Source: Thermodesulfobacteriota bacterium
GTDB lineage: Bacteria; Desulfobacterota; GWC2-55-46
DNA length: 64,000 bases
Direction of reading: 5' to 3'
Assembly (NCBI GenBank): GCA_030583865.1
Contig: CP129479.1
Span: 2,442,819-2,506,818 of the forward strand
Each line of letters opens with the position of its first letter. Positions within the stretch are counted from its first letter, which is position 1. A model generated the notes under the pieces. The model was given only the letters and a program-made list of their open reading frames with translations. It searched no databases and had not been told where the DNA came from. Both the position numbers and the translations under genes were made by a program. Positions 1,910 to 4,576 of this stretch are shown here, piece by piece.

Positions 1910-2491
1910 ATGCCGCTTAATGAATCGGAAAAAAGGGAGCTCCTCCTGATAGCGCGCGAGGCCATAGAAAGCAGGGCCCGAAGGACCGCTACGAACTTTA
2001 AGATTGATAACGCCTCAGGCGCCTTGAACGAGGATGCAGGCGCGTTCGTAACGATAAACAGGAAAGGACGGCTCCGGGGGTGCATAGGCGTTTTCGCCTC
2101 AAAAGACCCGCTCTGGAAGACGGTTGAGCGGATGGCCGGGGCTGCGGCAGCCGAGGACCCGAGGTTCGTGCCTATCGGAGAGGACGAGCTTCCGGATATC
2201 GAAATCGAGATTTCCGTCCTTACGCCTTTGAGGAAGATAGACGACCCGGAAGAGGTTGAGGTGGGCCGCCACGGACTCGTCATCGCGCTCGGGATGAAGC
2301 GCGGCGCGCTCCTTCCGCAGGTGGCGACCGAGCACGGCTTTGACAGGGAGACATTCCTTTCCGAAACCTGCGTAAAGGCGGGCCTCAAGCCGGACGCGTG
2401 GAAAGACGGCGCGTCGATATACGTATTCGAGGCGGAGGTGTTCGGGGAGGTGCCTTCTCCCAAATTAGGTACAAATACTTCGCACCAATGA
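1910..2491 (+). CDS. amrA: AMMECR1-domain protein (AmmeMemoRadiSam system protein A)
   Basis: The 193-residue product carries the AMMECR1 signature: a conserved N-terminal helix region (ESEKRELLLIAREAIE), FVTINRKGRLRGCIG at about residues 46-60 containing the LRGCIG hallmark, and EIEISVLTPLRKI. The family is named AmmeMemoRadiSam system protein A when found with a MEMO-domain protein and a radical SAM enzyme; neither partner is beside it here. Its biochemical role is not established. The ATG follows GGATTTAATGAG, a weak ribosome-binding site. Upstream nadA is divergent; downstream lies a GC-rich hairpin and then the convergent AT-rich cassette. The last residues (about 175-193) look poorly conserved and may be tail. 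Confidence 0.85.
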   Translation: MPLNESEKRELLLIAREAIESRARRTATNFKIDNASGALNEDAGAFVTINRKGRLRGCIGVFASKDPLWKTVERMAGAAAAEDPRFVPIGEDELPDIEIEISVLTPLRKIDDPEEVEVGRHGLVIALGMKRGALLPQVATEHGFDRETFLSETCVKAGLKPDAWKDGASIYVFEAEVFGEVPSPKLGTNTSHQ

Positions 2492-2497
2492 ACCTCT

Positions 2498-2519
2498 CCC
2501 CGGCCTTAAAAGGCCGGGG
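2498..2519. terminator. GC-rich hairpin between convergent genes
   Basis: CCCCGGCCTT, a two-base loop, then AAGGCCGGGG form a perfect 10-bp stem just past the AMMECR1 stop. There is no real T-run on either side, so it may be a terminator or only a stable 3' end for both convergent transcripts. Confidence 0.5.
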
Positions 2520-2540
2520 GGTTCTGACCGTTTCTCTTAA

Positions 2541-2795
2541 TCAGGTTACACTGATATATCCCGGCAGTTCTGATATTGTTATTCTTGTATTTACCTTTAC
2601 GTTTATATTCAGGTAAGGACATTCCAAAAATTCCTTCTCAGTTCTGAAAAACAGATAACCGCTTGGGTCGCATAATGCTCCAGGGAACTGCGTTAATCTC
2701 TCATAAAATTTTCCATCTTTGTGGAATAGAGCTTGTTTAGCACCTATACCCCAAGCTACATTTAACCGTTTCCCAGAATCTGTTCTGTGTGACAT
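2541..2795 (-). CDS. Small protein of unknown function, second gene of AT-rich cassette
   Basis: An 84-residue product that I do not recognise. It has no signal peptide or membrane segment. The second half (DPSGYLFFRTEKEFLECPYL, then NINVKVNTR and SELPGY) looks like a compact conserved domain rich in aromatic residues; the N-terminal half holds a short GIGAKQALFHKDGKFYERL stretch. The ATG follows AGGAGAAGAGCG, a very strong ribosome-binding site that begins right after the stop codon of the upstream gene, so the two genes are co-transcribed and likely translationally coupled. Codon and base use are visibly more AT-rich than in the flanking housekeeping genes, suggesting acquisition. Confidence 0.7.
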   Translation of the reverse strand: MSHRTDSGKRLNVAWGIGAKQALFHKDGKFYERLTQFPGALCDPSGYLFFRTEKEFLECPYLNINVKVNTRITISELPGYISVT

Positions 2796-2807
2796 CGCTC
2801 TTCTCCT

Positions 2808-3200
2808 TTATTTTGTTAAGTGGTACCCAGAATCAGTAAGCGCTTTTCTGATTGCATTTATTTGGCCGATAGTAGCGTCATTCTCGTGCGCGAATACCGA
2901 TGCTTCTTCAATTACTTTACGGATTTCTTTTTTTTCATTGCGAGAAGGTAGAACCCATTCCCTTCGAGATCCATTTTGAAAATCCACAACGAGTTTTCCG
3001 GCATCATTCACGCGAGTTGATAATCGATTTTTAGTTTTATTTCTACTACGAAACACTCCGTTTTTTTCAAGAGAATCGGATGTTGTCTTTTTTTTATTCA
3101 ATCCAAAAACGCGTCGAAGGACATCGTCTTCTGTTTCTCCAAAATAACCTCTTTTTGCGATTTCATTCCAAACATCATCTGAAATTCTAATATTTTTCAT
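2808..3200 (-). CDS. Putative ribbon-helix-helix/SeqA-N-like DNA-binding protein, first gene of AT-rich cassette
   Basis: A 130-residue product. Its N-terminus (MKNIRISDDVWNEIAK, then GETEDDVLRRVFGL) has the beta-strand/two-helix pattern of ribbon-helix-helix proteins and resembles the SeqA N-terminal oligomerisation segment, where a strand like MKTIEVDDELY is followed by a helix with DILRRML. The middle is basic (KKKTTSD...RSRNKTKNRLSTR) and the C-terminal half (EWVLPSRNEKKEIRKVIEEA onward) is unrecognised. The ATG lies six bases after AAAGGAT. A consensus promoter with overlapping inverted repeats sits directly upstream, as expected for an autoregulated repressor or antitoxin. That function is inference. 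Confidence 0.7.
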   Translation of the reverse strand: MKNIRISDDVWNEIAKRGYFGETEDDVLRRVFGLNKKKTTSDSLEKNGVFRSRNKTKNRLSTRVNDAGKLVVDFQNGSRREWVLPSRNEKKEIRKVIEEASVFAHENDATIGQINAIRKALTDSGYHLTK

Positions 3201-3213
3201 ATTTTTATCCTTT

Positions 3214-3261
3214 AAGTATTTTCATACTTTTCAGTATAGCAATAAATTAAATACTTGTCAA
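3214..3261 (-). promoter_or_regulatory. Consensus sigma-70 promoter with overlapping operator-like half-sites
   Basis: On the minus strand TTGACA (3261-3256), a 17-base spacer and TATACT (3238-3233): a perfect -35, and a -10 with one mismatch. From the -10 to the leader the DNA carries alternating AGTAT/ATACT half-sites, including AAGTAT-N4-ATACTT at 3214-3229 and ATACT-N4-AGTAT at 3224-3237; another ATACTT (3251-3256) touches the -35. This is the usual layout for autorepression by the ribbon-helix-helix-like product encoded directly downstream. Confidence 0.7.
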
Positions 3262-3325
3262 GTCCCTGCTCAAATGGATTTAGCTTTGTTCCATTTATAA
3301 ACATGTGCTGATGATGCGCCTCGGG

Positions 3326-3364
3326 AAAAAAAAGGGCCAGCCTTTTTGGCTGGCCCTTTTTTTT
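3326..3364. terminator. Bidirectional rho-independent terminator
   Basis: GGGCCAGCC, loop TTTTT, GGCTGGCCC (3334-3356) flanked by eight A on the left and eight T on the right. On the minus strand it ends the aminotransferase transcript; from the other side it insulates the AT-rich cassette promoter. Confidence 0.9.
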
Positions 3365-3379
3365 ATCAAACAGGAATCT

Positions 3380-4576
3380 CTACCTAAGCTCCCCTACCGC
3401 CTCCCCTATCTTCTTTATTCCCTTTACTATGTTGTCCATCGAGGTCGCGTAGGATAGCCTCATGAAGCGGTCGTCGCCGAAGGGCTCGCCGGGCACGACG
3501 GCGATCCCGGCCTCGTCAATGAGGTAAGTCGCTAGCGCAACCGAGCCGTCTATCTTCTTCCCCTTATACGACCTTCCGAAGAGGCCGGAGATGTTCGCGA
3601 AGACATAGAACGCGCCCTGCGGCCTTATGGCGCTTATGCCGTCTATGGCGTTCAAGCCGTCCACCATAACGTCCCGCCTCTTGCCGAACTCAGTAAGCAT
3701 GCGGGTTATGACGTCCTGCGGGCCGCTTATGGCCTCGACCGCCGCCCACTGGCTGATTGACGCCGGGTTCGAGGTGGACTGGCTCTGGATGTTGGTCATG
3801 GCCTTTATTATCTCCTTCGGCCCGGCGGCGTAGCCTATCCTCCAGCCTGTCATGGAATAGGTCTTGGAGACTCCGTTAAGGACTATGGTCCTCTTCCTGA
3901 CCTCGTCGGAGACGGAGGCGATAGAAGTCGCCCGGAAGCCGCCGTAAGTGAGCTTCTCGTAAATCTCATCCGAGATGATGAGGAGGCCGTTCTCAAGCGC
4001 TATCTCAGCGAGCCTTTCAAGCTCCTTTTCCGTGTAGGCCGCGCCAGTGGGGTTGGAGGGGCTGTTTATGACGATTGCCTTGGTATTGGGGCCTATGGCC
4101 GCCCTGAAGGCCTCCGGGGTCATCCTGAAACCAGCGGCCTCGTCCGTGTGCACGACCCTTGGTATGCCGCCGCCGAGCGCGGCCATGACAGGGTAAGAGA
4201 CCCAGTACGGCGCGGGTATTATGACCTCGTCGCCGGGGTCGAGTACGGCCTGAAAAAGGTTGAAGATGGAGTGCTTGCCGCCGCAGGATACTATTATCTC
4301 GTCGCGCGAATAGTCGAGGGAGTTATCGCGGCTGAACTTCCCGATGATGGCGTCCTTCAATTCATTTATGCCGCCGACCGCCGTATACTTGGTGTGCCCG
4401 TCGCGTATGGCCCTTATTGCGGCCTCTTTTATGTTCTCGGGCGTGTCGAAGTCGGGCTCGCCAGCGCCGAAGCCTATTACGTCCCTGCCCTCCGCCTTAA
4501 GCGCGCGCGCCTTGGCGGTTATGGCGAGAGTTACCGATTCCTCTAATCCTGAAAGCCTTCCTGCAAGCTTGAACAT
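3380..4576 (-). CDS. aspC: Aspartate aminotransferase-type class I/II PLP enzyme
   Basis: It transfers an amino group between amino acids and 2-oxo acids, most likely aspartate/2-oxoglutarate, in the cytoplasm. The 398 residues show the fold-type I pattern: FGAGEPDFDTPENIK near residue 40, the cofactor-binding YWVSYP, NSPSNPTGAAYT, SDEIYEKLTY, the Schiff-base lysine in NGVSKTYSMTGWRIGY, and the substrate-carboxylate arginine in RLSYA near the C-terminus. The motif set fits the thermophile/Gram-positive-type subgroup (I-gamma) rather than the E. coli enzyme, so related activities such as prephenate or alanine transamination are possible. The ATG follows AAGGAGC by seven bases. It is monocistronic and ends at a strong terminator. 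Confidence 0.9.
   Translation of the reverse strand: MFKLAGRLSGLEESVTLAITAKARALKAEGRDVIGFGAGEPDFDTPENIKEAAIRAIRDGHTKYTAVGGINELKDAIIGKFSRDNSLDYSRDEIIVSCGGKHSIFNLFQAVLDPGDEVIIPAPYWVSYPVMAALGGGIPRVVHTDEAAGFRMTPEAFRAAIGPNTKAIVINSPSNPTGAAYTEKELERLAEIALENGLLIISDEIYEKLTYGGFRATSIASVSDEVRKRTIVLNGVSKTYSMTGWRIGYAAGPKEIIKAMTNIQSQSTSNPASISQWAAVEAISGPQDVITRMLTEFGKRRDVMVDGLNAIDGISAIRPQGAFYVFANISGLFGRSYKGKKIDGSVALATYLIDEAGIAVVPGEPFGDDRFMRLSYATSMDNIVKGIKKIGEAVGELR

Follow-up and report, generated by a model that had tools for sequence, protein, structure and literature searches.

A SeqA-type N-terminal module paired with an undescribed 84-residue domain in a two-gene cassette of a Thermodesulfobacteriota bacterium

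SeqA is the negative modulator of replication initiation in E. coli and is usually viewed as regulating replication in enterobacteria and their relatives. According to PMC5295017, it binds GATC in the hemimethylated state and brings in further copies of itself. The RAMA domain has been proposed to read 6mA, with mixed experimental support according to PMC11037411, and the anti-phage system PD-Lambda-5 changed the number or the size of plaques for every phage except one in a panel of 10 (PMC9519451). Here these systems are compared with a small cassette in a 64,000-base stretch of a Thermodesulfobacteriota genome, the whole of which is called the window below. The cassette's SeqA module and its arrangement as two genes are of known kinds; neither the domain formed by its second protein, P0002, nor the pairing of that domain with SeqA_N turned up in the family libraries or the open literature searched. 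Likewise, the open PMC literature, including the accessible part of PMC12707154, yielded no paper connecting SeqA N-terminal modules with either RAMA or restriction domains.

The cassette, its site and its promoter

Both small genes announced by the earlier note were located on the minus strand of the window, encoding 130 and then 84 amino acids with 12 bases between them. A ribosome-binding site precedes each gene in the sequence, and the strong AGGAG coupling described previously corresponds to AAAGGAG in front of the second. The features are as follows.

2455-3327, no strand: inserted segment of about 870 bases between the AMMECR1-like and aspartate aminotransferase genes, delimited by BLASTN
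2808-3200, minus strand: P0001 gene, 130 aa
3093-3200, minus strand: DNA coding for the SeqA_N module, the first 36 codons of P0001, from profile A9
2541-2795, minus strand: P0002 gene, 84 aa
2803-2809, minus strand: ribosome-binding site of gene 2, AAAGGAG, overlapping the stop of gene 1, with a spacing of 7 to the ATG
3256-3261, minus strand: -35 element TTGACA, from the sequence
3233-3238, minus strand: -10 element TATACT, preceded by TGC (TG extension), from the sequence
3215-3255, minus strand: operator-like array of AGTAT/ATACT half-sites at 3215, 3224, 3233 and 3251, in a 9-base register

Base composition is indeed unlike that of the surroundings, with a GC of 0.376 in the cassette versus 0.582 in the window. 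This is the lowest stretch in the 64 kb, within which 660-base segments with GC of 0.42 or less occur only around 2420-2920. The source genome (2.75 Mb, one contig) holds a single copy each of the P0001 and P0002 genes.

The BLASTN match between the window and related genomes ends at 2447-2454 and restarts at 3326 or later. The upstream flanking gene, called AMMECR1-like by eye, as the aspartate aminotransferase was also named, is present in 28 of the 30 genomes searched, own genome counted. When six loci (L021-L026) were compared with the window, the AMMECR1-like match was followed by the aspartate aminotransferase match after 13 to 177 bases in five (L022-L026), and in L022 the stretches matched by BLASTN are only 23 bases apart at the cassette site. 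The sixth, L021 of genome G261, carries other genes before the aminotransferase, and because its gap is filled in this way the position looks like a hot spot for insertions. Relatives of P0001 and P0002 were absent from the 29 other genomes of the same family that were searched. Since the sites of the relatives are empty or differently filled and these genomes lack both proteins, the cassette has, on comparative grounds, arrived only recently at a site whose content varies (about window 2455-3327), and the empty sites lend substance to its earlier description as self-contained; it is a horizontally acquired module of two genes. In G261, a close relative, the genes in the gap (L032:2239-6208) appear by eye to be hemerythrin-like, CheW-like, chemotaxis receptor and HTH genes. 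Elsewhere in the window, a small MITE-like element at 728-891 has 26-base inverted arms, 88% complementary and 112 bases apart.

Two possible vehicles were rejected. No attC repeat was seen by eye in the insert, and only one relative, L010, lies in such an array, which does not fit an integron cassette in the window. A viral origin was discarded since no relative of P0001 was found in one viral_contigs scan, none of the P0002 family in four such scans, and none of either cassette protein in phage records.

The consensus promoter is present as claimed, with TTGACA, 17-base spacing and TATACT. It is the sole sigma-70-like site in 2400-3420 and scores 11 of 12, where shuffles average 2.3 sites, and an exact TTGACA-N17-TATACT is found at two places when both strands of the 64 kb are counted. 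The half-sites over the -10 and leader, spaced 9, 9 and 18 bases, withstood the comparison with shuffled sequence in one respect and failed it in another. A 5-mer of any kind repeated four times in one 8-12-base register arose in 1 of 2000 shuffles, the half-site motif itself having been picked after looking at the sequences; as a plain palindrome the array was equalled by 131 of 500 shuffles, and that form of the operator was rejected as within chance. The mere presence of four AGTAT in the promoter region is likewise unexceptional (p 0.24).

The two proteins

P0001 comprises a SeqA_N (RHH) module at residues about 1-34, a low-confidence linker at 35-56 and a C-terminal beta-beta-beta-alpha-alpha domain at 60-123. 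As a single sequence its resemblance to SeqA_N is weak (PF17206, E 0.0036, 17 of 23 bits, below the Pfam cut-off), and with 20.9 of 185 bits against NF008389 (E 2.8e-4) it falls outside full-length SeqA. Profile A9, built from nine SeqA_N-type proteins, each cut to its first 36 or 37 codons, matches E. coli SeqA with E 8.7e-9 (1xrx) and 8.6e-8 (3fmt), the next match being at 0.019. By this profile P0001 begins with a true SeqA N-terminal module, as anticipated when it was called RHH/SeqA-N-like. The C-terminal hemimethylated-GATC domain of SeqA was not detected in P0001 or P0002 with Pfam or NCBIfam.

The AlphaFold2 model of P0001, from a four-row alignment (pLDDT 69.3, C-terminal part about 85), shows an unpaired N-terminus, two short helices, the linker and the beta3-alpha2 domain. 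The best VIA matches of this fold, 60S ribosomal proteins (Z 6.5, rmsd 2.5, 66 aligned), lie under the noise line and were set aside. One full-length relative was found, P0003 on a Methylococcus plasmid (47%), and a further one, in G143, is cut by a contig end. The gene following P0003 encodes P0004, a small protein unlike P0002, and the C-terminal tail is nearly the same in P0001 and P0003 though the next gene differs. P0004 (L006:5601-5924) has 107 aa, no Pfam or other family match, and the same operator half-sites as its neighbour.

P0002 is predicted to be an 84-aa alpha/beta domain with the motif LNxxWxxGA...FPGALxDxxGYxxF. Its earlier characterization as a protein of no known family agrees with the absence of any match in Pfam, NCBIfam, PADLOC and PHROG. 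The AlphaFold2 model is a confident compact fold (pLDDT 89.9, pTM 0.80), for which Foldseek gave no match in the PDB at E 0.001 and none in BFVD. Among 49 chains compared by VIA-align, the restriction enzymes NhoI (8q5n; Z 4.2, rmsd 3.0, 78 aligned) and NaeI (Z 2.2, rmsd 3.7, 74 aligned) were both within noise. Other candidates were also rejected: a phmmer match to Tectonin 2 (E 4e-4) adds up five fragments that are each unconvincing by themselves, matches to antibody chains were taken as composition noise, and homology with RAMA has neither a Pfam match nor more than a probability of 0.1 in hhalign. Twelve residues are invariant in the domain, and because only N12 and D43 among them are polar no catalytic set is evident.

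Relatives of P0002 and the function of the cassette

Eleven relatives of P0002 were found outside the window, a lower bound because the scan relied on two peptide patterns. Ten loci were recovered among 67 candidate stretches in the genome collection and one, L002, among 246 other phylum-sample genomes; a plasmid match, L003, duplicates the L011 record. In three of the eleven, the MAG-derived L009 (Methylotenera), L010 (Silanimonas) and L013 (Lysobacteraceae), SeqA_N, a linker and the P0002 domain form one ORF, and since the two domains share one protein in three taxa the two window genes would belong together. The split two-gene form was seen in the window only, and in the class of the Methylotenera genome the P0002 domain occurs in 1 of 321 genomes, that genome alone. 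The Silanimonas fusion gene, with a promoter-like sequence of its own, sits between two attC-like repeats of an integron array (L010:1-4880) that has 12 such 73-base repeats.

In two further relatives the domain is N-terminal to an HNH nuclease (L014, PF01844, E 8.6e-7; L015, PF13391, E 5.8e-8). Their HNH portions match type IV restriction models (4.7e-7 and 6e-6), that of L015 also a phosphorothioate-dependent restriction model (4.4e-12), and the recognition parts of these models are unmatched by either protein. By eye, the ORF just upstream of the fusion in L014 (139-1311) is HNH-like too, and there may be two tandem HNH genes. Another two relatives, L011 (Mesorhizobium) and L012 (Devosia), directly follow PD-Lambda-5_A (1.4e-124 and 1.3e-125) and PD-Lambda-5_B (1.8e-117 and 3.8e-118), a pair that includes an adenine methyltransferase. 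A P0002 relative is not a regular third gene of that system, being found within the 1.5-kb flanks of only 1 of 19 PD-Lambda-5_A sites, the already-known Mesorhizobium locus. These associations justify the tie to small defence modules made in the earlier note. L016 (3519-6249) has in a row a GHKL ATPase, weakly MzaB-like, a Methyltransf_35 protein and a P0002 relative, possibly an undescribed defence operon. L002 and L017 have no evident partner, and the relative in L018 is broken by an in-frame stop.

Because the domain is N-terminal to HNH, third in the PD-Lambda-5 operons and C-terminal to SeqA_N, it looks like a DNA-recognition part, perhaps one that reads modification. One could instead regard the cassette as what is left of a type IV-like restriction system, with P0002 as a surviving specificity domain that no longer serves any purpose. 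HNH-fused relatives, broken copies such as L018 and an insert devoid of a nuclease would all be in keeping with such decay, but neither window gene is broken, the promoter, the ribosome-binding sites and the operator-like array are all in place, and nuclease-free forms make up 8 of the 11 relatives, which renders this account quite improbable.

The same relatives bear on the suggestion that the cassette is built as a toxin-antitoxin module, which for type II would make P0001 an RHH antitoxin and autorepressor and P0002 a small toxin. The layout agrees, with two small coupled genes, the RHH protein first, recent insertion and an array on their own promoter that is an operator by pattern only. 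Toxin-antitoxin modules are common integron cargo, and the L010 fusion gene sits in an integron array; a Txe/YoeB pair is annotated beside the Methylococcus relative of P0001, and ORFs resembling such a pair lie near L002 by eye. PADLOC at E 0.001 gave nothing for the toxin ORF at either of these two places. However, toxin families are among those without a match to P0002 in the four libraries, no RHH neighbour was seen beside L002, L011, L012, L016 or L017, and profile A2 found no P0001 relative in the 10 genomes with L009-L018. The persistence of the P0001 tail in Methylococcus despite another next gene is also unlike a toxin-specific antidote tail. A toxin-antitoxin function is thus unlikely, because the domain lacks evident catalytic residues, occurs in antitoxin-less copies and is fused to the very module of the supposed antitoxin as well as to nucleases; a DNA-recognition domain fits these observations better.

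Repeats were also sought before the genes of the relatives. Each of the three fusion genes is preceded by two or more copies of ACAGT, eight in total, a result that no set among 2000 shuffled triplets equalled, and three control promoters had no 5-mer in common. The palindrome TAATACTGTaACAGTATTA lies 19 bases ahead of the L009 start codon and was equalled by 11 of 500 shuffles; simple palindromes did no better than shuffles at other loci (74 of 500 do as well for L013, 498 of 500 for L005). At the Methylococcus locus, GTAGA/TCTAC inverted repeats precede both P0003 and P0004, which suggests one regulator for both genes. One may speculate from this that such a regulator could control unrelated cargo, and that P0001 is an ordinary RHH repressor and P0002 an accessory protein with a role other than DNA recognition, for instance a ligand- or protein-binding adaptor. 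The array on the window promoter would suit such an arrangement, but in three taxa SeqA_N and the P0002 domain are covalently fused, which is hardly expected of mere cargo, and we consider this explanation unlikely.

The hypothesis that we prefer, tentatively and with a chance just short of even, is that the cassette encodes a split, autoregulated SeqA-like DNA-binding complex. P0001 would dimerise via its SeqA_N/RHH module and would bind the half-site array, with its 9-base register, over its own -10, and such binding would make the operon autoregulated. P0002 would be the DNA-recognition domain, joining P0001 non-covalently in the cassette and covalently in the fusions, and together they could form a multivalent DNA-binding assembly of the SeqA kind, with oligomerisation module, linker and DNA-reading domain. 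The target would probably be a modified base or some site in foreign DNA, because the domain accompanies HNH nucleases and a defence operon with an adenine methyltransferase, and SeqA_N is elsewhere fused to RAMA. The likely use of the complex would be to sense or occlude modified or foreign DNA without cutting it.

A broader and rather doubtful extension is that P0002 is the founding member of a new kind of small domain that reads DNA modification, and that proteins combining SeqA_N with a reader, RAMA or the P0002 domain, fused or split, constitute a nuclease-free immune class that would recognise, oligomerise on and silence modified phage or plasmid DNA while keeping its own promoter in check. 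The domain family is in any case undescribed and tied to three DNA-handling settings, namely SeqA_N proteins, HNH nucleases and PD-Lambda-5 operons, and with 84 apparently well folded residues P0002 offers a handle on a possible new reader of DNA or DNA modification.

Comparison with known systems

In HNH type IV modification-dependent restriction enzymes, the N-terminal place of the recognition domain is the one held by the P0002 domain in L014 and L015, whose modification dependence is deduced from HNH similarity only. The window cassette differs in having no nuclease, none being found in the insert among ORFs or with Pfam. The likeness to PD-Lambda-5 consists in P0002 relatives being the gene after PD-Lambda-5_B in L011 and L012, whereas no PD-Lambda-5 gene adjoins the window cassette and neither cassette protein matches PADLOC. 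The one D12 adenine methyltransferase of the host genome lies away from the cassette.

Small two-domain proteins of about 140 aa, P0005-P0008 on Rhodococcus and Streptomyces plasmids, start with the same module as P0001 and continue with RAMA (PF18755, E 1.2e-16 to 1.1e-12), a second domain without profile similarity to P0002. The SeqA_N-RAMA proteins on actinobacterial plasmids (loci L037, L038, L039 and L040) are annotated as hypothetical and have GIY-YIG, CoiA-like, DUF3644 and DUF499 proteins among their neighbours.

SeqA itself has the homologous N-terminal oligomerisation module, and its plan of SeqA_N, linker and second domain is repeated in the fusion relatives L009, L010 and L013. The cassette differs from SeqA in that its second domain is of another family and encoded by a separate gene, and in that P0001 has an extra C-terminal domain, which is absent from the SeqA_N-P0002 fusions. 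These comparisons suggest that SeqA is one member of a larger set of SeqA_N-plus-reader proteins that are mobile.
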